Below are positions 1,301-55,870 of a stretch of 64,000 nt of DNA, piece by piece (positions within the stretch are counted from its first letter, which is position 1; each line of letters starts with the position of its first letter). A model generated the notes under the pieces. It was not told the origin of the DNA and searched no databases. It worked only from the letters and a program-made list of their open reading frames with translations. Made by a program: the position numbers and the translations under genes. Source of the stretch: Porphyromonas canoris (GTDB taxonomy: Bacteria > Bacteroidota > Bacteroidia > Bacteroidales > Porphyromonadaceae); contig NZ_JQZV01000006.1 of NCBI RefSeq assembly GCF_000769115.1, forward strand, positions 55,922-119,921. Reading direction: 5' to 3'.

Positions 1301-2605
1301 ATGAAGAGATCAAGAACAATCTACAAGAATGCAACTGTGTACCGCACGGATAAGAAAGAGCTGGGACGCTTCGACGTAGCAGTGAGAGACGGAAAGATAG
1401 AGGCTGTGGAGGCGGTGATAGAACCGAAAGAGCCGGAAGAACAAGTGATAGATCTCTCCGGTCTTACGCTATTGCCCGGCTTGGTGGATGTGCATGTGCA
1501 CATGCGTGAACCCGGATTTTCCGAGAAAGAGACCTATGCCACCGGAACGGCAGCTGCGGCTCATGGCGGATTTACCGCTATCTGTCCGATGCCTAACCTC
1601 AATCCTGCTCCGGACAGCAGCGAGACACTGGCAGTACAGGAGCGCATGATAGAGGAGCAGGCTGTGGTAAAGGTCTATCCGATAGGTTGTATCACGATAG
1701 GACAGAAGGGTGGAGGAACTCTTGTGGACTTTGCCGGGATAGAGTCAAGAGTGGCAGGATTTTCCGATGATGGCAGAGGCGTGCAGGAAGATGCCTTGAT
1801 GGAAGAGGCGATGCGCCGATGCGCCGTGGTGGATAGACCCATTGTGGCTCACTGCGAAGTGGAAGAGCTGATAAAGGGAGGATATATCCACGATGGAGAG
1901 TACTGCAAAGCTCACGGACACAAAGGGATCTGCTCGGAAAGCGAGTGGCTTCAGGTCAAGAGGGATATAGAGTACAGCGAACGAACCGGCTGTCAGTATC
2001 ATGTCTGCCATGTCTCTACAAAAGAGAGCGTGGAGCTTATCCGACAAGCCAAAGCAAAAGGTTTGCGTGTGAGTGGAGAGACGGCTCCGCACTACCTTCT
2101 TCTTACCGATGTGGAGATAGAAGAGGATGGAAGATTTAAGATGAATCCGCCTATCAGAAGCAAAGAAGACCAAGAAGCACTCTTCAAAGGTGTTATGGAT
2201 GGCACATTGGAGTGTATTGCCACGGATCATGCACCGCATACGGCAGAGGAAAAGAGCCGTGGACTGGCAGGAAGCAATATGGGTATCGTCGGACTGGAAA
2301 CGGCATTCCCTCTGATGTACAAATACTTCGTCGTTACCGGAAAGATGTCTCTCGAACATCTTATGGACTTGATGGCAAACAATCCTCGCCGTCTGTTCCG
2401 CATAGATGGCGGTACAGCCGTGGGAGACAGCGCAGACTTTGTGGTGATGGATCTGGAGGCGAAGTACAAGGTGGACCCCGAAACATTCCTCTCCAAAGGT
2501 AGAGCCACTCCGTTTACCGGATGGGATGTACAGGGTAAAACGATGCTCACCGTAGTTTCGGGTAAGCATGTCTATGTAGATAACAAGATGTCAGAAAGAC
2601 TTTAA
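1301..2605 (+). CDS. pyrC: Dihydroorotase
   Basis: Catalyses reversible cyclisation of carbamoyl aspartate to dihydroorotate, the third step of UMP synthesis, in the cytoplasm. It is 434 residues long, typical of the larger class I dihydroorotases. The metal-binding HVH of VDVHVHMREPG is at residues 65-67. FSDDGRGV follows in the middle and TDHAPHT (Asp309) near the C-terminus. It is the first gene of the pyr operon and starts 16 bp after the attenuator hairpin and T-tract. carA follows after 20 bp. Family assignment is secure. Confidence 0.95.
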   Translation: MKRSRTIYKNATVYRTDKKELGRFDVAVRDGKIEAVEAVIEPKEPEEQVIDLSGLTLLPGLVDVHVHMREPGFSEKETYATGTAAAAHGGFTAICPMPNLNPAPDSSETLAVQERMIEEQAVVKVYPIGCITIGQKGGGTLVDFAGIESRVAGFSDDGRGVQEDALMEEAMRRCAVVDRPIVAHCEVEELIKGGYIHDGEYCKAHGHKGICSESEWLQVKRDIEYSERTGCQYHVCHVSTKESVELIRQAKAKGLRVSGETAPHYLLLTDVEIEEDGRFKMNPPIRSKEDQEALFKGVMDGTLECIATDHAPHTAEEKSRGLAGSNMGIVGLETAFPLMYKYFVVTGKMSLEHLMDLMANNPRRLFRIDGGTAVGDSADFVVMDLEAKYKVDPETFLSKGRATPFTGWDVQGKTMLTVVSGKHVYVDNKMSERL

Positions 2606-2625
2606 CAGATATATTTTTTCAGAAG

Positions 2626-3714
2626 ATGACGACAACGATAAAGCCATACACCGCAAAGATCGTCCTCAGCGACGGCAGGGAGTTTTATGGTTACGGCTTT
2701 GGAGCCAAAGTAGAAGCAATCCGGGAGTTGGTCTTCGATACTGCCATGGTTGGTTACCAGGAGATCCTCTCCGATCCGGCTTACGTGGATCAGGCGGTGG
2801 TGCTTACATACCCACTTATAGGAAACTATGGCGTGGCGGATGAAGACTATGAAGCAAAGTATCCTGTAGCAGGAGGATTTGTGGTAAGAGAGTACAACGA
2901 CTCTCCCAGCAACTTCAGATATACCAAAACGCTGAGTGAAGTGATGGAGGAGTATAATATCCCCGGAATAGCGGGAGTAGATACCCGTGCCCTGACGCGT
3001 ATAATAAGACAAGAGGGTGCACAGAAAGTGCTCTTCACCTCACCTGATACACCGGTAGAAGAGGCTAAGGCAAAGTTGGACTCTTGGACGCTTCCGACAG
3101 ACGGTGTCTCTCGTGTAAGCTGTAAGAAAAGATGGCTGACCCGTACACCCGGACATATCTACGATGTGGTCGTGCTCGATTTGGGCGTTAAGTATAACGT
3201 CATCAGAAGTCTTAACAGACGAGGCTGCAATGTTACGATAGTGCCTTTCGATACAACGGCGGAAGAGATTCTCGCCTTTGCTCCGGACGGTATAGTCCTT
3301 GCCGGCGGACCCGGTAATCCTGCCGATCTTCCAAGTGTGCTGGAGACGATAGAACAGCTTAAGGGGAAAGTGCCGATGCTGGGAATCTCTCTCGGACATA
3401 CGCTCATCGGACACGCTTATGGTGCAACATCTTACAAGATGCGTGTGGGTCATAGAGGATCTTTCCCGGTTAAGGATCTACGAACAGGCAGGGTAAAGAT
3501 GGCAGCGGAAAATCATGGATATTCCATGAGAGAGGGTAGCCTGATGGGCACAAAGCTTGTGGCTACTCACCGCAATGTGGTACTGAAGGATATTGAGGGG
3601 ATGATCTGCGAAGAGGATAAGGTGATGACAACACAGTTCTGCCCGGAAAGTAATCCGGGTCCAACAGATTACAGAGAGGTGTTTGACGGTTTTATAGATC
3701 TGATGAAAAAATAA
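2626..3714 (+). CDS. carA: Carbamoyl-phosphate synthase small chain with a degenerate glutaminase site
   Basis: Normally hydrolyses glutamine and feeds ammonia to CarB. The protein has 362 residues. The N-terminal CPSase domain (GYQEILSDP, TYPLIGNYG) and the GATase fold (GGPGNP, NHG) are present. However, the nucleophile motif GICLGHQ reads GISLGHT (Ser255), and the catalytic-His motif HPE reads CPE (Cys339), with Glu341 kept. These align with E. coli Cys269, His353 and Glu355 at a constant offset of 14. The Gln-binding glutamine after GH is Thr. The GxxHPVK stretch is shortened to GSFPVK. Glutamine hydrolysis is therefore very unlikely. Cys-to-Ser is also seen in the ammonia-dependent vertebrate CPS I. 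The frame is intact and the gene sits next to carB, so it is probably a structural partner. Confidence 0.9.
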   Translation: MTTTIKPYTAKIVLSDGREFYGYGFGAKVEAIRELVFDTAMVGYQEILSDPAYVDQAVVLTYPLIGNYGVADEDYEAKYPVAGGFVVREYNDSPSNFRYTKTLSEVMEEYNIPGIAGVDTRALTRIIRQEGAQKVLFTSPDTPVEEAKAKLDSWTLPTDGVSRVSCKKRWLTRTPGHIYDVVVLDLGVKYNVIRSLNRRGCNVTIVPFDTTAEEILAFAPDGIVLAGGPGNPADLPSVLETIEQLKGKVPMLGISLGHTLIGHAYGATSYKMRVGHRGSFPVKDLRTGRVKMAAENHGYSMREGSLMGTKLVATHRNVVLKDIEGMICEEDKVMTTQFCPESNPGPTDYREVFDGFIDLMKK

Positions 3715-3721
3715 GTAGAAG

Positions 3722-6700
3722 ATGCCAAAGAGAACAGACATAAAGAAGATAATGGTGATAGGCTCCGGTCCTATCGTGATAGGTCAGGCTGCGGAGTTCG
3801 ACTACGCAGGAACACAAGCCTGCATCGCCTTGAAAGAAGAGGGGTATGAAGTGATTCTTCTCAACTCCAATCCGGCAACAATCATGACGGATACCAACAT
3901 GGCAGATAAAGTCTATATGGAGCCTCTTACACTGGAATATGCCGCAAAGATTATTCGTTACGAGAGACCCGATGCCCTTCTTCCAAGCTTGGGAGGTCAG
4001 ACGGGGCTTAATCTTTCCATGCAGCTTGCCAAGAAAGGTATATTGGACGAGTGTAAGGTAGAGATGCTCGGCACTTCTCTCACCTGTATAGAGAGAGCGG
4101 AAGACAGGGATCTCTTTAAGGAGTTGTGCAAAGGGCTGGGTGAACCGGTGCTTCCGTCCAAGATCGCTCACACGATAGAAGAGGGAGTGGAAGTGGCTGC
4201 GGAGATCGGATATCCGGTGGTGCTTCGTCCTGCATTCACACTCGGAGGTACCGGCGGTGGTTTTGCGGATGATGAGGATGAGCTTAGAGAGCTTATGCGC
4301 AATGCACTGTTCCTCTCTCCCGTTCATCAGGTTCTTATAGAGAAGAGCATCAAAGGCTACAAGGAGATCGAGTTTGAAGTGATGCGAGACAGCAACGACA
4401 CCGCAATGGCAATCTGTAGCATGGAGAATATAGATCCGGTAGGCGTACACACGGGAGACTCTATCGTGGTAGCACCAAGCCAGACACTGACCAATAAGGA
4501 GGTGCAGATGTTGCGAGACAGTGCCCTTCGTATCATCCGTGAACTGAAGATAGAGGGAGGATGTAACGTGCAGTTTGCTTTGGATCCACTCTCTTTCAAC
4601 TACTATTTGATAGAGGTCAATCCTCGTGTTTCTCGCTCTTCGGCTTTGGCTTCCAAGGCAACAGGCTATCCGATAGCTCGTGTTACGGCAAAGGTTGCTG
4701 TGGGAATGCATCTGGATGAAATCCTTATCAAGGATCTGCCGGCTTGCTGTGAGCCTACGATAGACTATGTTGTAACAAAGGTGGCTCGCTTCCCATTCGA
4801 TAAGTTCAGCGATGCTTCCAATGTACTCGGTACGCAGATGAAAGCCACCGGAGAGGTGATGAGTATCGGACGTACCATGGAAGAGTCTTTCCTTAAGGCT
4901 ATCCGCAGTTTGGAGCAGGGCGTATGCCACGTTCACAAGAAAAGCTTCGACGACAAAACCTCTGCGGAACTTCTTGAATACATCAAGACTCCGACCGATG
5001 AACGTATCTATGCCATAGCTCAACTTATCCGAAACGGCGTAGACCTTTCTCTTATCTACAACAATACGAAGATAGACTTGTTTTTCCTTGAGAAGTTCAA
5101 AAACATAGTGGAACATGAGGCTTTGGTCCGTAATAATGTCAGGGATGCCGCTGTTCTGAAAGAGGTGAAGAAGCTGGGCTTTAGTGATCAGTATGTGGGA
5201 ATGCTCTGGAACATGAGTCAGGAAGAGATGTATCTTTTCCGCAAAGAACACCGCATCTATCCGGTCTATAAGATGATGGATAGCTGTGCAGGGCAGACCG
5301 ATAGGGATATTCCTTACTTCTATTCTACTTATGAGAACGAGTCGGAATCCACTCCGAGCGACAAGAAAAAGATTCTCGTATTGGGTTCAGGTCCTATACG
5401 TATCGGGCAAGGAGTGGAGTTTGATTACTCTACCGTTCATGCCGTGTGGTCTATCAGAGAAGCCGGTTATGAGGCTATCATCATCAACAATAACCCGGAA
5501 ACCGTATCTACGGACTATACTACAAGCGATAAGTTATACTTTGAACCGCTCACGGTGGAAGATGTCATGAATGTGTACGATCTGGAAAAACCTGTCGGCA
5601 CTATCGTGTCTCTCGGAGGACAGACAGCGATTAACCTTGCAGAGCCACTACATAAACTTGGTGTGCCCATTATCGGTACCGATGTGGAGGCAATACGCAA
5701 CGCAGAAGACCGTGGATGCTTTGAGCGCATCATGGAAGAGCTGAAAATCCCTCAACCGGAAGCGGAAGCCGTAACCAACATAGAGGATGGTGTGAAAGCA
5801 GCAGCACGCATAGGCTATCCGGTACTCGTGAGACCGAGCTACGTTCTTGGTGGTAGAGCCATGCAGATAGTATCCAATGAGGAGAGACTGCGCCACTATC
5901 TCCAAAATGCGGTAGAGCTTAACACCGATCAGCCGGTGCTTGTGGACAGATATATTATAGGTAAAGAGCTTGAGATAGATGCCATCTGTGATGGAACGGA
6001 TGTCTTTATACCGGGTATCATGGAGCACGTGGAGAGAACAGGTATCCACTCCGGAGACTCCATCAGTGTCTATCCGACATTCTCGGTAAGCCAGAAAGTG
6101 AAAGAGACCATCCTTGAATACTCCAAGCAGTTGGGCTTGCGAATCGGTATAAGAGGGCTGTTCAATATCCAGTTTATCGTGGACGACAAAGAAGAGGTTT
6201 ACGTCATCGAGGTTAATCCTCGCTCTTCACGTACTGTGCCGTTCTTGTCCAAAGCAACCGGAATCCAGATGGCTCACTTGGCTACACAGGTTATGCTGGG
6301 CAAGAGTCTGAAAGAACTTGGATACAGCTCCGAGTATCCGGCAGAAAAGAAGCGTTGGTATGTGAAAGCTCCGACATTCTCCTTTGCTAAAATAAGGGGT
6401 ATGGACTCTTATCTCAGCCCGGAAATGAAATCCACCGGCGAGGCTATCGGGTACGACAAAACGCTTACCCGTGCCTTGTACAAAGCTCTCCAGGCTACGG
6501 GAATGAATGTGGCAAACTACGGAACCGTGATTGTTACACTTGCCGATGCCGCTAAAGAGAAAGCTCTTCCACTCATAAGACGTTTTTATAACCTTGGCTT
6601 TAACATAGAAGCTACTACCGGTACGGCAAAATATTTGAGAGACAACGGAATCCGGACACGTACACTGCACAAGCTGAGCGAGGGTAGTACAGAGATTATA

Positions 6701-6904
6701 GACTCTTTAAGACAAGGCTATGTGAGCTACGTGATCAACTCGATAGATGTAAATCAGCACAATACTCGTCTGGATGGCTACGAAATACGTAGAGCCGCCG
6801 TGGAGAACAACGTTACCGTCTTCACTGCGCTGGAAACCGTGAAAGTATTGTTGGATGTGCTGGAAGAGATCACTCTGAAAGTTTCGACCATAGATGCCGA
6901 ATAA
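3722..6904 (+). CDS. carB: Carbamoyl-phosphate synthase large chain
   Basis: Makes carbamoyl phosphate from bicarbonate, ammonia and two ATP. It has 1060 residues, close to the usual length of about 1070. Two homologous ATP-grasp halves begin with [21 protein letters not shown] and, near residue 550, [20 protein letters not shown]. Both contain NPRxSRSSA/T-type catalytic loops ([34 protein letters not shown]). The C-terminal roughly 130 residues form the methylglyoxal-synthase-like regulatory domain (TGTAKYL). No catalytic loss is apparent, so with its defective CarA partner it should still work with free ammonia. It starts 7 bp after carA and is followed by pyrK after 14 bp. Confidence 0.96.
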
Positions 6905-6918
6905 ATAAAACGTATATA

Positions 6919-7665
6919 ATGTACAAGAAAGGAAGATATACTATCCTTAGTAATGTCAATATAGCCAAGGATGTCTGGCAGATGATATTGGAGGGAGATA
7001 CCCGATACCTTTCCCGTCCCGGTCAGTTCGTCAATATCCTTGTCCAAGGGCATTTCTTACGTCGTCCCATTTCTGTTTGCGACTATGATGACGGCACAAT
7101 GACCCTTATATATAAGGTCTTTGGCTCCGGCACGGAGGCACTCTCCAAGATGAATGCAGGAGCCGAGCTTGACCTCCTGACAGGTCTTGGCAACGGCTTC
7201 GATATATCTGTATCTGCTTCCCGTCCGCTTCTTGTGGGGGGGGGAGTGGGTGTACCTCCTCTTTACAGGCTTTGTAAGGATCTTTCCGATAATGGAGCTG
7301 CGCCAATCGTGGTGTTGGGTTTTAATACGGAGAAAGAGATCTTCTATGCCGATAAGTTTGCCGAGATTCCCGGAACAACGGTATATGTCGCCACGGTGGA
7401 TGGCAGCCATGGATTCAAAGGATTGGTTACGGAGCTTATCATGGATAGCCCGGAGTGTCGGAGTATAGACTATCTTTTCACCTGCGGACCGACGCCCATG
7501 CTGAAAGCTCTCCATGCTCTGCCTTTCACCGGACAGTTCTCTTTTGAAGAGAGAATGGGCTGCGGCTTTGGAGGATGTATGGGATGCACACACAAGACAA
7601 CGGAAGGATACAAGCGAGTTTGCTTGGAAGGTCCTGTATTCAGAAAGGAGGAGATCGTATGGTAG
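6919..7665 (+). CDS. pyrK: Dihydroorotate dehydrogenase electron transfer subunit
   Basis: FAD and [2Fe-2S] protein that passes electrons from class 1B PyrD to NAD+. It has 248 residues with a ferredoxin-reductase-like fold. The FAD region has RPISVCDYD. The NAD-binding region has [15 protein letters not shown]. Cluster ligands are Cys215, Cys220, Cys223 and Cys235 in [15 protein letters not shown]...RVCLEGPVF. The GGG stretch is encoded over a run of nine G residues (7236-7244), a possible slippage site. It overlaps pyrD by 7 bp, fitting a 1:1 complex. Confidence 0.95.
7236..7244 (+). repeat. Nine-G homopolymer inside pyrK
   Basis: Nine consecutive G residues encode part of the conserved GGGVG loop. 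A change of one base would frameshift pyrK and might be polar on the genes behind it. In this sequence the frame is intact. Confidence 0.9.
7645..7651 (+). promoter_or_regulatory. Strong ribosome binding site deciding the pyrD start
   Basis: AAGGAGG lies 7 nt before ATG 7659. It supports that start, which overlaps pyrK, over the longer in-frame ORF beginning at 7575. Confidence 0.7.
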
Positions 7666-8570
7666 ACTTATCTGTAAATCTTAGCGGAGTGGAGTTGGAT
7701 AATCCCATTATCCCTGCAAGCGGAACATTCGGGTTCGGTCAGGAGTACGCTCCTTTCTATGATCTCAACATACTTGGCTCCATCTCTTTCAAGGGGACTA
7801 CCAAAGAACCTCGATTCGGTAACCCTACCCCTCGCATTGCAGAGTGCACGGAGGGAATACTCAATGCGGTGGGGCTGCAAAATCCCGGTGTTCACAAGGT
7901 GATAGAAGAGGAGCTTCCCCGATTGGCAAAGATTTTCAAGAAACCGTTGGTGGCTAATATCAGCGGATTTTCATTGGAAGAGTATGTCTACTGCACCGAG
8001 TTGATGAGCGAAGTGGAGCAGGTCGGCATCATCGAGATCAACGTCAGCTGCCCTAACGTCAAGCATGGAGGGATGAGTTTTGGCACTTGTCCCGATCAAG
8101 CCGCACTCGTAACCAAGCATGTGAAAGCCGTAAGCAAAAAACCGGTTTATATCAAATTGAGCCCGAACGTTACGGATATCGTCTCCATCGCAAAGGCATG
8201 CGAAGCGGAAGGTGCAGACGGTCTTTGTCTGATCAATACGCTTTTGGGCATGCGCTTTGACCTCAAAAAGCGTCGTCCCATCCTTGCCAATGGTACGGGC
8301 GGATTCTCAGGACCTGCGATATTTCCCATAGCTCTTCGCATGGTGTACCAGACACACAAGGCGGTCTCGATCCCTATCATGGGATGCGGAGGCGTTATGA
8401 CGGCACGGGATGTTCTGGAAATGATGATGGCAGGAGCCACTGCCGTGCAGGTCGGATCCGCCAATCTCATCAATCCCTATGCCTCTAAGGAGATCATCGA
8501 AGCGCTTCCGGCGGAGATGGAGAAGCTGGGCATCTCATCCCTCAGGGAGATTATTGGTGTGGCAGAATAA
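7659..8570 (+). CDS. pyrD: Dihydroorotate dehydrogenase, class 1B catalytic subunit
   Basis: FMN enzyme oxidising dihydroorotate to orotate. It has 303 residues from the ATG at 7659, which starts [13 protein letters not shown] like the family. An upstream extension to 7575 would lie within pyrK and is not supported. The active-site base is Cys131 in [12 protein letters not shown]. The glycine-rich FMN phosphate loop MGCGGV is near residue 245. The partner PyrK and the Cys base make it class 1B, which uses NAD+. It forms a heterotetramer with PyrK. Confidence 0.95.
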
Positions 8571-8607
8571 GAGTAAAAGAACACTATTATAGTCAGAACA
8601 GAACAAC

Positions 8608-9309
8608 ATGGCAAAAGATGTAATCATAGCTTGCGACTTCGAGAGCGCAGAGGCTACGCTCCGTTTCCTGGATCTTTTCCGGGACGAGAAGCCTTATGTC
8701 AAGATCGGGATGGAGCTTTACTACGCTGCAGGTCCCGAAATCGTAAGAGAGATAAAGAAGCGCGGACACAAGATTTTCTTGGATCTCAAGCTCCACGACA
8801 TACCCAATACCGTAAAGAAAGCGATGGCTGTCCTCTCCAAGCTGGATGTGGATATGACTAACGTTCATGCTGCCGGTACGGTGGAAATGATGCGTGCCGC
8901 CGTTGAGGGACTCACCAGACCGGATGGCTCTCGTCCGCTGCTCATTGCGGTAACGCAGCTTACGTCCACTTCGCAGGAGCGCATGAATGAAGATCTGCTC
9001 ATACAAGGCGATATCAACGACGTCATAGCTCACTATGCAAAAAATGCCGAGCGTGCCGGACTCGATGGCGTGGTCTGCTCTCCGCTCGAAGCGGCGGGTG
9101 TGAAAGAAGCAACACACCCCTCTTTCCTGACCATCACGCCCGGTGTACGCTTTGCTGATGGGGATAAAGGCGATCAGGTACGCGTAACCACCCCCGAACG
9201 TGCTCGCGAAATCGGGTCGGACTATATCGTGGTGGGGCGTCCCATCACTGCAGCTCCCGATCCGGTGCAGGCTTATCGGAAGGTCTGTCGAGACTTCTTG
9301 CAGCGATGA
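8608..9309 (+). CDS. pyrF: Orotidine 5'-phosphate decarboxylase
   Basis: Decarboxylates OMP to UMP, the last step of the pathway. It has 233 residues in a TIM barrel. The catalytic DxKxxD is Asp59-Leu-Lys61-Leu-His-Asp64 ([12 protein letters not shown]). The phosphate-binding end has ITPGVR and IVVGRPIT. It starts 37 bp after pyrD and is followed by a 276-bp spacer before pyrE, the longest in the operon. Confidence 0.95.
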
Positions 9310-9393
9310 AAAAAGTCGCATCCTAAAAATGTGTGCAGCATTTTGATTTTCAGCTTGATGTAAAGGAATTAAAGTCTCCTTTCGGAAAAGGCG

Positions 9394-9454
9394 AAATTTC
9401 TTTGCGGACGAAAATAAATTTCTATGCGGAAAGAAATTTTTCTCCTTGCGGAAG
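9394..9454 (+). repeat. Three imperfect short repeats in the pyrF-pyrE spacer
   Basis: The unit AAATTTCTTTGCGGACG (9394-9410) recurs as AAATTTCTATGCGGAAAG (9416-9433) and, more loosely, at 9434-9454. AAATTTCTTT can pair with AAAGAAATTT (9431-9440). No function is evident. It could be an RNA-processing or regulatory spacer. Confidence 0.5.
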
Positions 9455-9585
9455 AAGAAAAAACGGATCCGCCCGAATGATAAAAAACAGCAATGACAAT
9501 CTCCAAATTCGGAGAGACCGACTGCACGCTTTTTCACCCTCGGCACAACATATACATTCACCTCAAAACAGATATTAAAGAAGAC

Positions 9586-10227
9586 ATGGAAAATCTATCA
9601 AGAGATATAGCGGAAAAACTCCTCTCTATCAGAGCAGTTTTTTTGAGCCCGAAAACTCCTTTTACGTGGGCAAGCGGTATCAAGAGCCCCATCTACTGCG
9701 ACAATCGCCTCACTTTGAGCTATCCGAAGATTAGGGAAGCGGTGGAGGAAGGACTCGCAACTCTCATCCGCGAACACTATCCGGACGTGGAGGTGCTCAT
9801 GGGAACATCCACCGCCGGCATCGCTCATGCAGCCATCACAGCCACCATTCTCGATCTGCCCATGGGCTATGTCCGCAGCGGTGCCAAGGACCACGGACGC
9901 ACCAATCAGATCGAAGGACACCTTGAACCGGGGCAAAAAGTTGTCGTCGTCGAAGACCTTATATCCACAGCCGGCTCCTCTTTGGACGTCGTAGAGGTAT
10001 TGCGCCAAGCCGGAGCAGACGTGCTCGGCATCGTGAGCATCTTCACCTATGGGATGAAGAAGGGCATCGACCGCCTCGAAGCCGCCGGCGTCAAAAATGT
10101 CTCCCTCTCCAACGTGGACACTCTCGTGGAAGTTGCCGTGGAGAAAGGGTACATCGCGCCCGAAGAGAAGGAACAGGTGATCGCCTTCCGTAACAACCCT
10201 TCGGACGAATCTTGGATCAGACAGTAA
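9586..10227 (+). CDS. pyrE: Orotate phosphoribosyltransferase
   Basis: Joins orotate to PRPP, giving OMP. It has 213 residues from ATG 9586. An in-frame ORF extends to 9493, but its first 31 codons do not look like the family and AAAGAAG precedes 9586. The PRPP-binding motif [14 protein letters not shown] has Glu123-Asp124, and the [15 protein letters not shown] loop closes over the active site. PRPP would come from prs at 17260-18201. pyrB follows after 20 bp. Confidence 0.94.
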
Positions 10228-10247
10228 TCCCTAACCTCTCCTTTCTC

Positions 10248-11330
10248 ATGAGACACTGTATAGAACCTACCGATTTTACTTCGCAAGAAGTGCGAGACCT
10301 CATCGCCCTTGCCGAAGATATGATAGCCCGCCCGGCTGCCTATGCCGAAGTGTGTAGGGGAAAGAAGTTGGCAACGCTCTTCTACGAGCCGAGCACACGC
10401 ACCAGACTCAGCTTCACGGCTGCGATGATGGAGCTTGGAGGAAATGTACTCGGCTTCTCCGATGCGCGCAACTCCTCCGCCTCCAAAGGCGAGACCGTTG
10501 CCGACACGGCTCGTGTCGTATCTACCTATGCAGACATCATAGCCATGCGACACTTTAAGGAGGGTGCCGCTTTGGTCGCATCGCAGTACGGCTCCATCCC
10601 GGTCATTAACGCCGGAGATGGTAGCCACTCTCATCCCACACAGACACTAACGGATCTTCTGACGATTCATCGTGAACTGGGCAGACTCGACAAGCTCACC
10701 ATCGGTCTTTGCGGAGACCTCAAGTATGGGCGCACGGTGCATTCTCTCATCAAAGCAATGTCCGGATTCGAGAACATACACTTCGTTCTCATCTCGCCCG
10801 ACTCGCTCCGCCTGCCGGACTATATGCGGAAAGAGCTGGAGCGTCAGGCAAGTCTCTCCTATACCGAAAGCGACAGCATCGAAACCGTTATCGGGACGTT
10901 GGACATTCTCTACATGACACGCGTACAGAAAGAACGCTTTTCGGACATCGCCGAATACGATCGGGTTAAGGATCTCTACATCTTGGACGAAGAAAAGATG
11001 GCGCTTGCCCCTGAAAGGATGATCGTCCTGCATCCACTTCCACGCGTGAACGAAATATCACCGGAGATAGACAACGACCCTCGAAGTGCCTACTTCCGAC
11101 AAGTGGCAAATGGCAAATACATCCGCATGGCACTTATCCTTACACTCCTCCGAGCCGCCGAAGGTATCGCCTTGGAGCCTAAAGTGCCACGCATTGCACA
11201 TGGAACGCACAGAGGAGATCACCGCTGTTCCAATCCGGTCTGCATCACTGCCTCCGAGCCGCTTTATGCTCAGTACATCGAGCACAACGGCGAAAAGCTC
11301 TGCGCATACTGCGAAAACTTTATCGGGTAG
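10248..11330 (+). CDS. pyrB: Aspartate carbamoyltransferase fused to a PyrI-like zinc domain
   Basis: Condenses carbamoyl phosphate with aspartate. It has 360 residues from ATG 10248. The ORF is open to 10212, but that start overlaps pyrE and places STRTR too late. The PyrB body (about 305 residues) has FYEPSTRTRLSF, MRH, HPTQTL, GDLKYGRTVHSL and HPLPR. The last about 50 residues are extra and contain CSNPVC (Cys327, Cys332) and CAYC (Cys352, Cys355), followed by ENF. CxxxxC...CxxC with ITASEP and YCEN matches the zinc domain of E. coli PyrI. The PyrI N-terminal nucleotide-binding domain is absent, so classical CTP/ATP allostery should be missing. It is the last gene of the operon. Confidence 0.93.
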   Translation: MRHCIEPTDFTSQEVRDLIALAEDMIARPAAYAEVCRGKKLATLFYEPSTRTRLSFTAAMMELGGNVLGFSDARNSSASKGETVADTARVVSTYADIIAMRHFKEGAALVASQYGSIPVINAGDGSHSHPTQTLTDLLTIHRELGRLDKLTIGLCGDLKYGRTVHSLIKAMSGFENIHFVLISPDSLRLPDYMRKELERQASLSYTESDSIETVIGTLDILYMTRVQKERFSDIAEYDRVKDLYILDEEKMALAPERMIVLHPLPRVNEISPEIDNDPRSAYFRQVANGKYIRMALILTLLRAAEGIALEPKVPRIAHGTHRGDHRCSNPVCITASEPLYAQYIEHNGEKLCAYCENFIG

Positions 11331-24540: not shown

Positions 24541-26187
24541 ATGATGTACACAAAAGAAGAACATAGGGCTTCCCTGAGTGGAGCCATGCTACTTCTCTTT
24601 TTGGTCGCTTTCGGAACGGTTTCTTGTAAGCAGGAGAGCGGTATTAAAGTGCCTCAAAAGAAAGAGCAGATCGGACTTACTTTTTCTGCAAACTTTGCAG
24701 ACGAGAGTTTACGTGCCCTTGATGGAGAGTGGGCATCCGGAGATAAAATCGGAGTCTTTACGAGAATGAGCCGTCCGGAAGCTGTATGGAACAAAGGAGA
24801 GCTGATAGCAGATAATAATCTGTTTATAAATGAGACAGGCGGCAGCCGTGCCATTTTCCGCCCGGCTTCGAGTTCGGACGAGATACATCTGATGGAAGGG
24901 CAGAAGATAGACATACTTGCCTACTATCCGCATAGAACTCCCCTCGATGAAAAGAGTGTTTCGCTTTCCGTTTCGGATCAGTCTGCTCCGGAGCAGATCA
25001 ATCTTCTATATGCCGATAATCTGAATGGTATCACCAGTAAAAGCAGTGCAGCGGATCTGGTCTTCCGCCATGCGTTGTCCAAAGTGCGTTTTAATGTGCG
25101 CTCTACCGACGGCTCTTCCCTTGAAGGACTGCAGGTAACTCTGCAGGGATTTCCTACAAAAGGGCGTTTCGACCTCCTCTCTCGCACGTGGAGTATAGAG
25201 CCGGCAGCCGGAGAGACTGTTACCGCCAAGATAGACGGAACAGGATCGGAGGTGAGAGCCGAAGCGTTCATACTGCCTTCGGAAAAGAGTAACGCAATGC
25301 GAGTGCTGTTTAGGCTGCCTTCCGGAAAAGAGTATATCTGGAATATCCGTGTGGATAGTCATGCTTTTCAGATGGGATATGAGTACAGTTATGGTATCAA
25401 TCTTAAGCCGGGAGGACTTATCCCGGACGACAAGGTCGGTTATCGGGAGCTGCCCCAAAAGCGTTCTTTGCCCAATACGCTCGTCCATACTCACTTCTCA
25501 ACCGAACTGAATGGTGCAAGAAACTATACATTCCTGCTCGACACCAAGCTTAAGTTTGCCTATTGGGTGGCTTATCCTCTCCACGGATTCTATTTGGGCA
25601 ACTTCAAGAGATTGAATAACTTTGACTTTGACCCCGATGTCCCGAAAGAGTATCAGGCTCGTCTTGATAAGAAAGGGTATCAAAGCAAGGATGGAATAAA
25701 GTATGATAGAGGGCATCAACTCCCAAGCGGAGACAGGACAGCAGGTCGAAAGCTGAACGATGCTACCTTCTATGCAACCAATATGACACCTCAAGCAAGC
25801 GATCTGAACCAGCGGATCTGGCAGAGATTGGAGGGACAGATCAGAACATGGCAAGCCGGACTGGTTACCAATGGAGTGGGAAAAGATACGCTATATGTGG
25901 TTACCGGAGCCGGTATGGAGGATGGCGAACCGGTACACATGGCTCAAGATAATGACGGAAAAGATTGTCCTGCTCCGCACTACTACTACAAGGTGCTGGC
26001 TAAAATGGACAGACATGGAGAATTTCATACGATAGGATTCATCATGAAAAATACTTCCGAGATTTCAGGTGATAATTATATGAAATACAAGTGTACGGTA
26101 AAGGAGGTGGAAAGAAAGACCGGATTTACCTTTTTTCCATTCTTGAAAGATGAAGTGAAGAATAAAATAGAAGATCATCTTTGGTGA
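24541..26187 (+). CDS. Lipoprotein: fimbrillin-like domain fused to a DNA/RNA non-specific endonuclease
   Basis: 548 residues. The lipoprotein signal ends LLLFLVAFGTVSC (lipid Cys29; two adjacent Met starts). Residues about 40-290 resemble fimbrillin/Mfa-like subunits (ALDGEWASGDKIGVF, DILAYYPHRTPL, LLYADNL, FRHALSKVRF). Residues about 315-548 form a NUC1 nuclease: YDRGHQLPSGD with Asp389-Arg-Gly-His392, then ATNMTPQASDLNQRIWQRLE carrying the metal-binding Asn. It should cleave DNA or RNA at the cell surface. Similar two-part proteins may exist in Bacteroidales, but the fusion is uncommon. It is co-transcribed with the next gene (48-bp gap). Confidence 0.85.
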   Translation: MMYTKEEHRASLSGAMLLLFLVAFGTVSCKQESGIKVPQKKEQIGLTFSANFADESLRALDGEWASGDKIGVFTRMSRPEAVWNKGELIADNNLFINETGGSRAIFRPASSSDEIHLMEGQKIDILAYYPHRTPLDEKSVSLSVSDQSAPEQINLLYADNLNGITSKSSAADLVFRHALSKVRFNVRSTDGSSLEGLQVTLQGFPTKGRFDLLSRTWSIEPAAGETVTAKIDGTGSEVRAEAFILPSEKSNAMRVLFRLPSGKEYIWNIRVDSHAFQMGYEYSYGINLKPGGLIPDDKVGYRELPQKRSLPNTLVHTHFSTELNGARNYTFLLDTKLKFAYWVAYPLHGFYLGNFKRLNNFDFDPDVPKEYQARLDKKGYQSKDGIKYDRGHQLPSGDRTAGRKLNDATFYATNMTPQASDLNQRIWQRLEGQIRTWQAGLVTNGVGKDTLYVVTGAGMEDGEPVHMAQDNDGKDCPAPHYYYKVLAKMDRHGEFHTIGFIMKNTSEISGDNYMKYKCTVKEVERKTGFTFFPFLKDEVKNKIEDHLW

Positions 26188-26235
26188 TATATACAGAGTA
26201 TTTATTGAGTTTTAATCCCATAAAATGAATTAAAA

Positions 26236-27909
26236 ATGAAACTTAAACAACTACTATTAGGAGCTCTGGGCGTATTTGCCCTTGCTGCTTGTAACAGCAA
26301 GCCGGATATGCCGACGGATGGATTTGGAAAAGAACCTGTGGCTTTCAAATCGTCCATCATCGGTTCTACTTCTCGTGCAGCAGAGACGGCTTTTGAAGCG
26401 AAAGATCAAATAGGCGTTTATATGCTGCCTGCTGCCGGAGAAGCAAAAGAAAATGCGGCATATATTACTGCCGAAGGTGGAGCAGAGGCTCTCTTCATCC
26501 CGAAGACGGAAGGCGATAAGATTCTTCTGCCAGAGGATGGAACGAATGTCGATTTCGTGGCTTATCATCCTTATCGAGCTGATGTAAATCAGAGGAAGAT
26601 CAAGTTGGATGTGTCGAATCAGTCTGACCAAAAGGCTTTGGATTTGATTTATGCCAACAATCTGAAAGGAGTAAACAGTATGACTCCTACATCTCAGTTC
26701 AAACTCTCTTTCCGTCATCAAATGAGTTTTGTACAGTTTGTATTCACTCCGAAGGCTAAAGAGAAAATTGTAAAGATTCTTTCTGTCGGTATCTCCGGCT
26801 TCCATAGAAAGGGACAGTTCAACCTCCAAGATGGAGCATTCTCCGATTATGAAGAAGCAGAGGTGGTATGGGCAAAACTTTCTGAAGACGGCTACTCGTT
26901 CTCTTCAATCCTAATCCCTCAAAATGATGTGGATATGATGCTGTATCTTTCTGATACCGGAGGTAAAAAGTATCACTGCAATTTTAACAAGATGAACTTT
27001 GAGAGAGGTAAGAGATACACCTTTACACTGAATATCACACCGGAAGGAAATATTGAGGTAAACGAATTGGGTACTGTAATAGAACCATGGAGCGATGTAG
27101 ATGGCGGTACTCACGAGCTGCGTCCGGAAAAGAAAGAGTTTGCAATAACTCCTTCCGAAGCTACGATAGAAGCTGCTTCGACCTCTCCGATAACTGTGAA
27201 TGTAACCGCAGGAGAGGGTGTTGCCTGGAATGCTTCAACATCGGAAAGCTGGGTGTCTGTATCTCCTCTTTCCGGTATCGGAAACGGACAGTTTGTGGTT
27301 TCTCCATCTCCCAATACCGACAGTCAAGAGCGTAAAGCAATCATCCGTGTACAGGCAGGAGAAGAGACATTGCAGTTTACTCTCACTCAAAAAGGTGTCA
27401 ATCCGGATCCATCTCCCGAAGGAGCTCTTTTCAAAGAAGGGTTCGGCAATATGCCTAAAGGCTCAAAGGATAAAGCTGATACGCTGGATAAACTATTGAA
27501 TTGTATAGATACAGAAAACAGAGATAAGGGGTATCTTTATGAGATCTCCGGTGCAGATGTTCGTGCTACCTCTCATTTGGATGGGCATATCTGGTTTCCT
27601 AAGGAGCCTGATACCTTCTTCCAAGTCGGTAATATCTCTGTTCCGGGAGAAGCAAATACACTTGTATTGACATTCGATCTCGCTACAAATAAGTCGGGGG
27701 ATACAGAAAGTGTTTTGGAAGTGATAGTAGGAGGTAAAACTCAAAAGGTATCTCTCACCAATCCTAAGCAGAACGAGTATCAGCAGAAGAGTGTCGAGAT
27801 AGTCGCTCCGACACTGACAGAAGGAAAGATCTCCATTAAATTCAATTCAAAAGGAGCCGAAAATAAAAATGGTTTTAGAGTGGATAATATTGTTCTCAAG
27901 AAGAAGTAA
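26236..27909 (+). CDS. Fimbrillin-family lipoprotein with a BACON domain
   Basis: 557 residues. The signal peptide is KLKQLLLGALGVFALAAC (Cys19). Residues about 30-290 are fimbrillin-like and parallel the neighbour's first domain (FEAKDQIGVYML, VDFVAYHPYRADV, LIYANNLKGV, FRHQMSFVQF). A BACON domain covers about 305-390 (WNASTSESWVSVSPLSG, FTLTQKG). The C-terminal roughly 150 residues form a beta-rich module with EGFGNMPKG and NGFRVDNIVLKKK, like carbohydrate-binding or anchor modules. It is probably a surface adhesin or glycan-binding partner of the nuclease lipoprotein. Its exact role is unknown. Confidence 0.75.
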   Translation: MKLKQLLLGALGVFALAACNSKPDMPTDGFGKEPVAFKSSIIGSTSRAAETAFEAKDQIGVYMLPAAGEAKENAAYITAEGGAEALFIPKTEGDKILLPEDGTNVDFVAYHPYRADVNQRKIKLDVSNQSDQKALDLIYANNLKGVNSMTPTSQFKLSFRHQMSFVQFVFTPKAKEKIVKILSVGISGFHRKGQFNLQDGAFSDYEEAEVVWAKLSEDGYSFSSILIPQNDVDMMLYLSDTGGKKYHCNFNKMNFERGKRYTFTLNITPEGNIEVNELGTVIEPWSDVDGGTHELRPEKKEFAITPSEATIEAASTSPITVNVTAGEGVAWNASTSESWVSVSPLSGIGNGQFVVSPSPNTDSQERKAIIRVQAGEETLQFTLTQKGVNPDPSPEGALFKEGFGNMPKGSKDKADTLDKLLNCIDTENRDKGYLYEISGADVRATSHLDGHIWFPKEPDTFFQVGNISVPGEANTLVLTFDLATNKSGDTESVLEVIVGGKTQKVSLTNPKQNEYQQKSVEIVAPTLTEGKISIKFNSKGAENKNGFRVDNIVLKKK

Positions 27910-51952: not shown

Positions 51953-54900
51953 ATGAAAAGAAACTTTTCTTTCAGATTCATTATGCTTGCGCTTGTTGCT
52001 GTGCTTTTCACTGTGACAAGTTGTAAGGATTATGATGATGATATTAAGAAAATCGAGGCAGCTCTAGAAGCTTACAAGGCCGGTGCTGCTAACGATCTTA
52101 AGGCTACGAAAGCTGAGCTTGAAAAGAAGATCACGGACCTTAAAGGCGATGTGACTACTGTTGCAGGCAAGGTGAAAGCTCTTGAGGAAAAAGTTGCTTC
52201 AGTGGAGGCTAATGCCGCTACAAAGAAGGAGCTTGAAGATGCAAAGAAAGAGCTTATGGCTAAGCTTGTTTCCCTTGAAACATTCAATGCTTATAAGGCT
52301 CAAGTAGATGCTAAGTTGGCTGATCTCGAAGCTAAGCTTGCTAAGGCTGCTACAAAAGACGAAGTTAAGGCTTTGGAAGATAGACTTAATGCAAAGATCG
52401 CTAAGGTTGAAGATGAACTTGGTAAGAGAATTGCTGCTTTGGAAGGAGTCTTGAAGCTTGTTAATGGCGAGTCTGAAGTGCTTAAGGAAATCAATGCCAG
52501 ACTTGATGGTATCGATAAGTCTCTTGAAGATCACCTTGCTAAGATTAACGAAAACAAGGCCGCTATCGAAGCTCTTAAGACCGAATTGCAAGAGAAGTAT
52601 GACGAACTTAAGGGTCTGATCGAAGCAAACAAGACTGCTATTGAAAATTTGGATGCTAAGGTTGAGCGTTATAAGAAAGAATTGGACGATAAGGATAAAG
52701 AGTTGGAAAAGATGATCGGATTCAACGCTGCTAACATCCTTACACTTTCTAAGCAACTTGAAGGTCTTACATTCATCCCAACTCGTGGTCTTCCTTCTGA
52801 AAAGACTATGAAGTTGTACTATTTTGCAGGTGACTATACAGCTGATCACGTGTTGATGTATCGCGTTAGCCCATCTAATGCAAAGCTTGGTGAAGACTTT
52901 ACTATCGAAAGCTTGAACTTCCAAATCACTACTCGTTCTGCTGACGATGGTGTAGAAGATCACTCCTCTAAGGTTGATGTTCACATCAATGGTGAGGTTA
53001 CTCAAAAGGGTGATATCATCTACATTCCTGTTCATATTAAGGGAGCAGAAGCTTGTGAAGTGTTTGGTAACGACACTTGGTGGGGCAATGAGTTCTTCCA
53101 TGGTGATAATGTTCTTGAAGAAGCTAACTTTGGACCTCATGTTGTTATGACCGTGGACGAAGACGCTACTACTCCTAATGTTAACTATGGAGCAAAGGGT
53201 GGCAAAAGAGGTCTTTCTATCGTTGTTACAGCTCTTACTAACGATATTAAGAGAAAAGAAGGACAAACTCCTGCTAAGCTTCGTGTGAAGTCTACAGAAC
53301 ACGTTAATACTCAACTTATCCCTACTCAAATCAAACTTGCTGAAGTTGTTGGTGAAAAGGGTCTTGTAGAGTTGGGTAAACCGGGTAAGCCTGTTTTGAC
53401 ATCTCGTCTTCTTAAGAGAACTCTTGCTGAGGCTACTACTTGGGCAAATGAGGACGAAGCCGTTCTTGGAAACGATGAAAAGAACTGGAACGTTCTTATG
53501 TGGTCCGGTACTCCTATTGCAAATGCTGCTCCTATCCAAGGAGAGATCGATCTTTATGACTATGTAACATCTTTCTACTATCCTCAAGATGGCGGTGATT
53601 ATAAGAATGAAAAGGTTGTTACTGGAGATCCATTCCGCCATTTCTACAATGAGTTTGGTGCATTTGGTGAACCATACACAGACAAACCGGTTTATGCTAA
53701 GCCTGTTTACGAATTTGAGCAAGTAGCATACGAAGATGATAATCACAATATTGTTATCATTGATGGTAATACAAACACTACTCACGTTTATACAACTATC
53801 GAAGGTAGCAAGCTTAAAGTTAAAGCTGATCAAATCTCTGCTTCTAACAATAAGAAGGTGATTGTTAAGGTTACACAAGTTAACTCTAAGTGTGACGTTC
53901 GTCAGCCTGTAGGTTATTTGGTTGTTAAGATCGTAGAATCTACAACAGGTTGGAGTGATGCTCATTGGACATTTGACTTTACTCAAGACGAACCAGAAGA
54001 TGCAGATAAATTCACTTCTTACAGAAACATTCCTTACTATCACAAGATGTTTGGTACTGATAAGCCTGTAGGAGGTCAAATTGTAAACTTCGAAAATGCT
54101 AATGATAACACTGTGGTTGCACGCTGGATGAACCCATTGAATGCGAAGAATTCTTGGGGTATTTCTAATGCTCTTCCTAACCCTGGTGACATCAATCCTA
54201 TCTTGAAGCAGTTGCCTACAATCAACTCTGCAGCAGAGTTCAAGAGTGCTTACATTATCAATGGTGATAACTCTGAAATAATTGAGCAATCTTTCGAGGC
54301 AGCAGATTATAACCATGTAAATGATACTGAAAATGTTGATGCTACGGGTGTTGATGAAGTTGATGCCTTCGACCATGTTCTTATCAGATATGAATTTGAT
54401 GCTAACTCGTTTATCGTTTATGTAGACGATAAGGCTCCGGCCGGTGATTATAGCATTACTTACAAGCTACAATACAAGACAGGTAATGTACAACAAGGTC
54501 GTGACCTTTACTTGACATTCAAGTTCCGTGTTGCGCTTCGTGAAATCTCTGTTAGCAAGGCAGAAAATGCTCATAACTGGATCCCGAATACAGATATCAT
54601 CAGAGCTCAATATGCAAGAATCCAAAACACTATTGCAGGTGGTTATGAATTCTTGTCTGAAAATGGCTATAAGGTAGACCTTACTGAAGCATTCAAGTTG
54701 GTTGAAAATGATAAGTCTAACATCCTTATAACTACTGAAAAGATTGTTGACTCTAATAGCGTAGAACCAGGTGAGGCTCCACAATACAGAGCAAGATTCG
54801 AGTTCGTTTATGATCAAGATCTTGTTGACGCTGGTTTCGTATTTAAGCGTGATGATAAGAACTATTTGACTCAGATCTACGTGAAAGATCAGCCTTCTAA

Positions 54901-55870
54901 TATAGCTGCTTGGATCGCAAGAGATGCTGACGGATGGGAACGCTTGCGTATTTCTATCTCTACAGGTGGAGACCGTCTATACAGTTACTTGATGAGCAAC
55001 CACAGACCTCACTCTGTAGGTTATCCTCACAATATGCTTACTACCGATGCAGAAGACTCTTCTCTTGAACGTGTAGACGACATGGAGAAACTCTTGAAGG
55101 TGCGTATGGTTACAGACATCAACCATGAGGCTCCTGATACAGATCCGAATCCTGAAAAGTTTGCTAATAACAACTATTACTACATTAAGGACTTCGCTGT
55201 GAAGTTTGAAAGAGCTCTACGTGTTAAGTTTACTACTGTTGTGTTGACAGATAAGCAAGATAAGCAAACATTCGAGTTTAACTTCCATACAAGAGATACT
55301 TCTGCTAAGATTTATCGCGGTCTGTTTGACCATGGTGATGCAGGAGTTACAAACTCTCAAGGTATTGGTCACTTGGTAGCAAGATTTGATCCTTCTGAAA
55401 CTATCAATGGAGATGCTAAGTTTGCTCCTAAGAAACTTGCTCAATGGTATGGTCTTGAAGAGCGTCTAACATTCCCATTGAGAGATGATACTCATATTGA
55501 CTACAAGTACATGGAAGTATCTAACGATAAGGGTGCTACATGGCAACCAATTCCGAAAGATATGACATCTATTTCTACACACCATCCGAGATTCATTGAT
55601 ATCGTAGGAGCATATGATAGTGCTACTCACGAGGATACTTGGACTGTAGAATGGCAAGGAAACTTGACAGGTATTACATCTGAAATCTGGTTCCGTATTC
55701 CTGTCCTTAACAAGACAGCAATCCAACAAGGTTTCAATGGAATAAAGGGTAATCCGGCTACACTTGTAGTAGGAGAAGCTCCTAATGGCTTGTGGGCTAC
55801 ATTCAGACGCGGTTATGCCGGAGTTAAGGGTTATGCAGTCTTCAAGATTGTTCCAAGACCTGGTATCTAA
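51953..55870 (+). CDS. Very large coiled-coil surface lipoprotein
   Basis: 1305 residues. The signal peptide ends LVAVLFTVTSC (Cys24), followed by an acidic KDYDDD that favours export to the outer surface in Bacteroidetes. Residues about 30-265 are a long coiled coil (heptads such as LKATKAELEKKITDLKGDV, AALEGVLKLVNGE). The remaining about 1000 residues are beta-rich with no named domain. Codon choice is strongly biased (AAG, GCT, CTT, GTT, ACT), like the adjacent ribosomal genes and unlike the lipoproteins at 24541-27909. This suggests very high expression, for instance as a major surface or S-layer-like protein. It is monocistronic, with its own terminator. Function not established. Confidence 0.75.
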   Translation: MKRNFSFRFIMLALVAVLFTVTSCKDYDDDIKKIEAALEAYKAGAANDLKATKAELEKKITDLKGDVTTVAGKVKALEEKVASVEANAATKKELEDAKKELMAKLVSLETFNAYKAQVDAKLADLEAKLAKAATKDEVKALEDRLNAKIAKVEDELGKRIAALEGVLKLVNGESEVLKEINARLDGIDKSLEDHLAKINENKAAIEALKTELQEKYDELKGLIEANKTAIENLDAKVERYKKELDDKDKELEKMIGFNAANILTLSKQLEGLTFIPTRGLPSEKTMKLYYFAGDYTADHVLMYRVSPSNAKLGEDFTIESLNFQITTRSADDGVEDHSSKVDVHINGEVTQKGDIIYIPVHIKGAEACEVFGNDTWWGNEFFHGDNVLEEANFGPHVVMTVDEDATTPNVNYGAKGGKRGLSIVVTALTNDIKRKEGQTPAKLRVKSTEHVNTQLIPTQIKLAEVVGEKGLVELGKPGKPVLTSRLLKRTLAEATTWANEDEAVLGNDEKNWNVLMWSGTPIANAAPIQGEIDLYDYVTSFYYPQDGGDYKNEKVVTGDPFRHFYNEFGAFGEPYTDKPVYAKPVYEFEQVAYEDDNHNIVIIDGNTNTTHVYTTIEGSKLKVKADQISASNNKKVIVKVTQVNSKCDVRQPVGYLVVKIVESTTGWSDAHWTFDFTQDEPEDADKFTSYRNIPYYHKMFGTDKPVGGQIVNFENANDNTVVARWMNPLNAKNSWGISNALPNPGDINPILKQLPTINSAAEFKSAYIINGDNSEIIEQSFEAADYNHVNDTENVDATGVDEVDAFDHVLIRYEFDANSFIVYVDDKAPAGDYSITYKLQYKTGNVQQGRDLYLTFKFRVALREISVSKAENAHNWIPNTDIIRAQYARIQNTIAGGYEFLSENGYKVDLTEAFKLVENDKSNILITTEKIVDSNSVEPGEAPQYRARFEFVYDQDLVDAGFVFKRDDKNYLTQIYVKDQPSNIAAWIARDADGWERLRISISTGGDRLYSYLMSNHRPHSVGYPHNMLTTDAEDSSLERVDDMEKLLKVRMVTDINHEAPDTDPNPEKFANNNYYYIKDFAVKFERALRVKFTTVVLTDKQDKQTFEFNFHTRDTSAKIYRGLFDHGDAGVTNSQGIGHLVARFDPSETINGDAKFAPKKLAQWYGLEERLTFPLRDDTHIDYKYMEVSNDKGATWQPIPKDMTSISTHHPRFIDIVGAYDSATHEDTWTVEWQGNLTGITSEIWFRIPVLNKTAIQQGFNGIKGNPATLVVGEAPNGLWATFRRGYAGVKGYAVFKIVPRPGI

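Follow-up and report, generated by a model that had tools for sequence, protein, structure and literature searches.

The window analyzed here, a 64-kb stretch of Porphyromonas canoris DNA, carries a pyr operon on the plus strand (positions 1301–11330) with the gene order pyrC, carA, carB, pyrK, pyrD, pyrF, pyrE, pyrB; all operon features described below lie on this strand. The first gene, pyrC (1301–2605), encodes dihydroorotase. It is followed by carA (2626–3714), coding for the 362-residue small subunit of carbamoyl-phosphate synthetase (CPS), which is a putative pseudo-glutaminase, and by carB (3722–6904), coding for the large, synthetase subunit. Downstream are pyrK (6919–7665; dihydroorotate dehydrogenase electron-transfer subunit), pyrD (7575–8570; dihydroorotate dehydrogenase), pyrF (8608–9309; orotidine-5'-phosphate decarboxylase), pyrE (9583–10227; orotate phosphoribosyltransferase), and pyrB (10212–11330; aspartate carbamoyltransferase). 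The identities of PyrC, CarA, CarB, PyrK, and PyrB were checked with NCBIfam. The names of PyrD, PyrF, and PyrE come from inspection of the sequence, with the position of pyrD as in related loci; the true start of pyrD is probably downstream of 7575, near 7650. PyrB has a C-terminal zinc domain of the PyrI type (PyrI_C, 23.3 bits, at the cut-off). The PyrI nucleotide-binding domain found no match in the window PyrB, and so this enzyme may lack the usual allosteric domain. An Rfam search of the 64-kb window detected no regulatory RNA.

CarA comprises a CPSase small-chain domain and a class-I GATase domain, and matches NCBIfam TIGR01368 at 1.9e-112 and the E. coli CarA structures at 5e-74. It is automatically annotated as "glutamine-hydrolyzing". 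In E. coli CarA, which hydrolyzes glutamine, Cys-269 and His-353 are essential for the reaction (PMC6245113). The Cys-His-Glu triad is, however, not present in the window CarA. Direct reading of the codons gave Ser255 (TCT, 3388–3390) in place of the nucleophile Cys269 and Cys339 (TGC, 3640–3642) in place of the catalytic His353, leaving Glu341 (GAA, 3646–3648), the counterpart of E. coli Glu355, as the sole triad residue kept. The glutamine-site residue Gln273, which follows the Gly-His pair, is replaced by Thr259 (ACG, 3400–3402). A constant offset of 14 to the E. coli numbering holds at all four positions. Around E. coli Gly293-Asn294-His295, which contribute to tunnel and pocket, the window CarA reads GHRGSFPV (3448–3471), one residue shorter than GHRGGNHPV. 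All of this agrees with the original prediction, made from the letters of this DNA, which had reported the two triad substitutions and the retained Glu, the constant offset, the altered Gln-binding residue after GH, and a shortened GxxHPVK stretch (GHR-GSFPVK versus GGNHPVK). The prediction had missed the replacement of the pocket residue Ser47 by Ala52 (2779–2781) and further changes at E. coli Asn240, Phe288, Asn294, His295, and Gln310. The tunnel-mouth pair Gly359-Pro360 and the Gly-Leu after the nucleophile position are kept. The fold is predicted to be intact: an AlphaFold2 model of CarA is ordered (pLDDT 91.2, with residues 344–346 uncertain) and has a strand at 251–255 and then a helix starting at 256, the arrangement expected of a nucleophile elbow.

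The original prediction had also described CarB as intact, and this held at all sites checked: both ATP-grasp halves keep their catalytic residues, and the ammonia gate Cys232/Ala251/Ala314 is retained. Most residues of the UMP/IMP site are kept as well. The residues corresponding to the E. coli ornithine-site Glu892 and Tyr1040 are replaced throughout the pyr-type clade described below, with intact and Cys-less CarA alike, which is consistent with a pyrimidine-only enzyme. Because the glutamine active site is lost, this CPS very probably uses free ammonia directly, and we hold it to be highly likely that CarA is a maintained pseudo-glutaminase in an ammonia-dependent enzyme.

The operon does not appear to be native to Porphyromonas. 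The CarA proteins of other family members, the sister species aside, are 31–39% identical to the window CarA; almost all are intact and some are fused to CarB. The window CarA groups instead with the pyr-operon CarA of Clostridia and Alistipes-type Bacteroidales, a clade to which identity is mostly 38–59% and in which the order pyrC-carA-carB-pyrK-pyrD is common. A horizontal replacement of the native gene by a clostridial/Alistipes-type xenolog is therefore likely. Many members of the clade are Cys-less, whereas the most similar relatives of the window CarA, L033 (59% identity, the nearest) and L034, are intact. In one tree L269, a Cys-less clostridial CarA on a long branch, joined the window lineage, a placement that carries a long-branch warning. 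Both this apparent origin and the apparently widespread loss of the nucleophile in Alistipes-type Bacteroidales and Clostridia had escaped the original prediction. Several Porphyromonas, and some other Bacteroidales, encode CarA and CarB in a single open frame of about 1450 residues, a fusion as in eukaryotes (L004, L006, and L017 from genomes G030, G029, and G036; also L076, L079, and L088). The fused, native-type CarA of G036, a Porphyromonas, is also Cys-less (Gly), an even closer parallel to vertebrate CPS I.

When the window CarA was used to search across Bacteroidales, most matches were native-type CarA, and those fetched were all intact; the survey was therefore moved to the Alistipes family and Clostridia. 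This CarA type was present in 109 of 200 sampled genomes of the family of the Alistipes genome G428. Among 62 newly read CarA of that family, which are not a random sample, 38 lacked the Cys (having Ser, Gly, Asp, or Glu) and 24 had it. A class-wide sample of Clostridia gave 11 Cys-less CarA among the 30 read. A tree of 148 sequences, built after the active-site columns had been taken out, required the nucleophile to have changed state at least 11 times, and nine independent pairs lay on well-supported branches. The direction of change is taken to be loss, because the outgroups of the tree, except the G036 lineage, have Cys. We infer that the nucleophile was lost independently at least nine times in this CarA type in Bacteroidales and Clostridia. 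The convergence with CPS I that had been proposed is thus stronger than claimed, and takes in Cys-to-Gly, Cys-to-Asp, and Cys-to-Glu as well as Cys-to-Ser changes. One Alistipes-family clade (L039, L059, L172, L173, L175, L177, L179, L180, and L182) has Asp at the nucleophile position, Gln-Pro-Asp for His-Pro-Glu where readable, and a deletion of the tunnel-mouth Gly359.

A Cys-less CarA was the sole CarA found in 54 genomes, namely 37 of 37 Alistipes-family genomes, 10 of 10 from Clostridia, and seven others (G000, which is the window genome, G034 = G426, G036, G427, G431, G436, and G439), many of the Cys-less genomes being MAGs, from any one of which a second carA could be missing. An intact second CarA accompanied the Cys-less one in nine genomes (G428–G430, G432–G435, G437, and G438). 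Some of these second copies adjoin a carbamoyltransferase gene, and the intact protein could supply carbamoyl phosphate in these nine.

The residues lost along with the nucleophile were followed across the clade. Intact CarA has Ser47 in 118 of 118 sequences and His353 in 117 of 117. In the Cys-less pyr-type proteins the corresponding counts, each out of 52, are 28 for Ser47 and 22 for His353, with 29 for Glu355, 33 for Gln273, 38 for Asn311, and 21 for Pro360; Gly241, Pro242, Gly243, and Gly271 are present in all 52. When nucleophile loss was tested in pairs against the loss of His353 or of Ser47, the contrasts all pointed one way, at about 5 to 0, although with nine pairs the median p was only 0.06. 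At sites near-invariant in intact enzymes, retention in the Cys-less lineages was 0.846 for CarA versus 0.980 for CarB, and many of the most-changed CarA sites are at the glutamine pocket or the tunnel mouth. The ATP-grasp catalytic and gate residues were invariant in 32 of 32 CarB partners of Cys-less CarA. As judged from these alignments, the pattern is one of glutamine chemistry lost with synthetase function and assembly kept.

These counts bear on the possibility that a rearranged active site still hydrolyzes glutamine, with Cys339 or Ser255 as nucleophile acting together with Glu341. Cys339 is at a position next to the old nucleophile, and the protein still has the Glu355 equivalent and the Gly-Leu that follows the nucleophile position. 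However, the general base is gone, as are Gln273, Ser47, Asn294, and His295 of the pocket. Moreover, the His353 position holds Gln, Gly, Glu, Asp, Tyr, or Asn among the 52 tabulated sequences and Cys in the window lineage only, so that there is no shared substitute nucleophile. We regard such a site as very improbable.

A glutaminase acting in trans, that is, a separate cellular enzyme that binds CarAB and supplies it with ammonia, is given just as little credence. The retention of Gly359-Pro360 at the tunnel mouth of the window CarA would suit it, and the genome does encode intact amidotransferases. Besides CarA there are four class-I amidotransferase matches, all of which keep His-Pro-Glu, and CTP synthase, a TrpG/PabA-like protein, and GMP synthase clearly keep the catalytic Cys (motifs GICLGMQ, GVCLGLQ, and GICYGAQ, each with HPE). 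With Cys and His kept in these three, the loss is specific to CarA. Against action in trans, there is no extra glutaminase gene between the operon genes, related loci show the plain order of genes from pyrC to pyrD, and many other Cys-less lineages no longer have the tunnel-mouth residues.

A less probable reading still is that CarAB is decaying or idle, with carbamoyl phosphate obtained elsewhere or pyrimidines scavenged; in some organisms carbamate kinase or catabolic transcarbamylases do supply carbamoyl phosphate (PMC6022934). Neither carbamate kinase nor ornithine carbamoyltransferase was found in the genome. PyrB was the only carbamoyltransferase detected, and carbamoyl phosphate thus appears to serve pyrimidines alone. 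A second carA, named in the original prediction as a finding that would count against it, was looked for and is rejected: the 2.2-Mb genome, 99.9% complete, has a single carA. Decay is likewise rejected. Between the window species and its sister species, Porphyromonas sp. S15M_Sa_21 (G034, = L032), whose CarA is 96% identical, dN/dS was 0.024 for carA, 0.021 for its amidotransferase half, 0.023 for carB, and 0.043 for pyrC, values that are approximate because dS is near 0.9. These genes contain no stops and the pyr operon is complete. CarA is therefore under strong purifying selection, equal to that on CarB. An error of sequencing or assembly in the two catalytic codons, another objection that had been foreseen, is rejected and has a negligible probability, because the sister species shows the same active-site residues in its own, independent assembly and many pocket positions are changed together. 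Among the sequences read, the Ser255/Thr259/Cys339 combination occurs only in these two species.

Each part of the original prediction that can be tested on sequence was borne out. The ammonia-dependent reading is thus the preferred one, and the enzyme might work as follows. Since the nucleophile, the catalytic base, and some of the glutamine pocket are missing, a glutamyl-thioester should be neither formed nor resolved, and the role left to CarA would be structural and allosteric support of CarB. The large subunit would make carboxyphosphate. Free cytosolic NH3 would enter through the vacated pocket or by a side entrance at the CarA-CarB interface and reach the conserved Cys232/Ala251/Ala314 gate, whereupon CarB would complete the carbamoyl phosphate that PyrB uses in pyrimidine synthesis. 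Rubino reportedly found in 1987 that the E. coli large subunit makes carbamoyl phosphate from NH3 in vivo (cited in PMC6245113). E. coli CPS variants with a blocked or perforated tunnel are still active on external ammonia (PMC4655335). However, E. coli CPS requires very high, probably unphysiological, ammonia (PMC6245113), and so either an adaptation of CarB or a high internal ammonia concentration would be required here. A search for a compensating change in CarB that all Cys-less lineages share found none.

No glutamine synthetase was detected in the genome, a feature that the original prediction did not mention; the glutamine synthetase domain (PF00120) was found in none of the three Porphyromonas genomes with a Cys-less CarA (G000, G034, and G036), although the same search found it in all 14 controls and in nine Alistipes-family genomes. 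Without this enzyme, and with probable peptide fermentation, glutamine would be costly and ammonia cheap. The Cys-less genomes of the Alistipes family that were tested do contain glutamine synthetase, however, so its absence cannot explain the change in general.

Vertebrate CPS I (human CPS1; PDB 5dot, 5dou, and 6uel) shares with the window enzyme its fold, its domain order, the Cys-to-Ser nucleophile change, and an altered Gly293 region. In human CPS1 the nucleophile position is occupied by Ser294, which explains the failure to use glutamine, and the position of Gly293 (E. coli numbering) is where the ammonia tunnel is blocked (PMC4655335). Ammonia as nitrogen donor is known for CPS I and inferred here. 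In its residues, the window CarA corresponds to an inactive glutaminase domain with a replaced nucleophile, as in CPS I. Unlike CPS I, which is a single fused, mitochondrial chain that needs N-acetylglutamate and serves the urea cycle, the window enzyme is a two-subunit bacterial enzyme from a pyrimidine operon that has also lost His353, retains most of its UMP/IMP site, and gives no sign of N-acetylglutamate control. Its carA and carB are separate, its nearest relatives are clostridial-type, and CarA scores 252.7 bits against E. coli CarA versus 180 against human CPS1. Its likeness to CPS I should thus be a convergence in expected working, of independent origin, and not one of descent. The gene would have arrived within a pyr operon of a type that appears to have undergone the same loss at least nine times. 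With E. coli CarAB (CPS II) it shares the two-subunit make-up, the catalytic residues of CarB at the sites tested, and the CarA fold; in contrast, the nucleophile, base, and pocket of CarA and the ornithine-site residues of CarB are gone.

The usual classification places ammonia-only CPS in animal mitochondria (CPS I) and glutamine-dependent CPS in bacteria (CPS II), and a review equates ammonia-only CPS with CPS I while stating that bacterial CPS II uses glutamine (PMC6022934). In the open-access literature searched, most subscription papers being outside its scope, there was no report of a bacterial ammonia-only CPS or a Cys-less CarA, and the ammonia-only change has been described for the animal urea-cycle enzyme only. 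Dozens of anaerobes appear to have repeatedly dropped glutamine, with the dead subunit, where measured, under strong selection. We think it probable that a recurrent and widespread ammonia-specific class has evolved among pyr-operon CPS in anaerobic Bacteroidales and Clostridia, and that its pseudo-glutaminase is selected for NH3 entry and regulation and not for nitrogen donation. These lineages offer many natural replicates for asking what the glutaminase subunit does beyond glutamine hydrolysis, by what route ammonia gets into CPS, and whether the change is driven by habitats rich in ammonia and poor in glutamine. Metabolic models built on the "glutamine-hydrolyzing" annotation probably assign the wrong nitrogen donor.

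Two further features of the window lie outside the operon. At 24541–27909 there are two neighboring Mfa_like_1 (fimbrillin-like) proteins, of which one carries a fused non-specific DNA/RNA endonuclease domain and the other a fused BACON domain. An open frame of 1305 residues occupies 51953–55870 and has zero Pfam matches at 1e-5.
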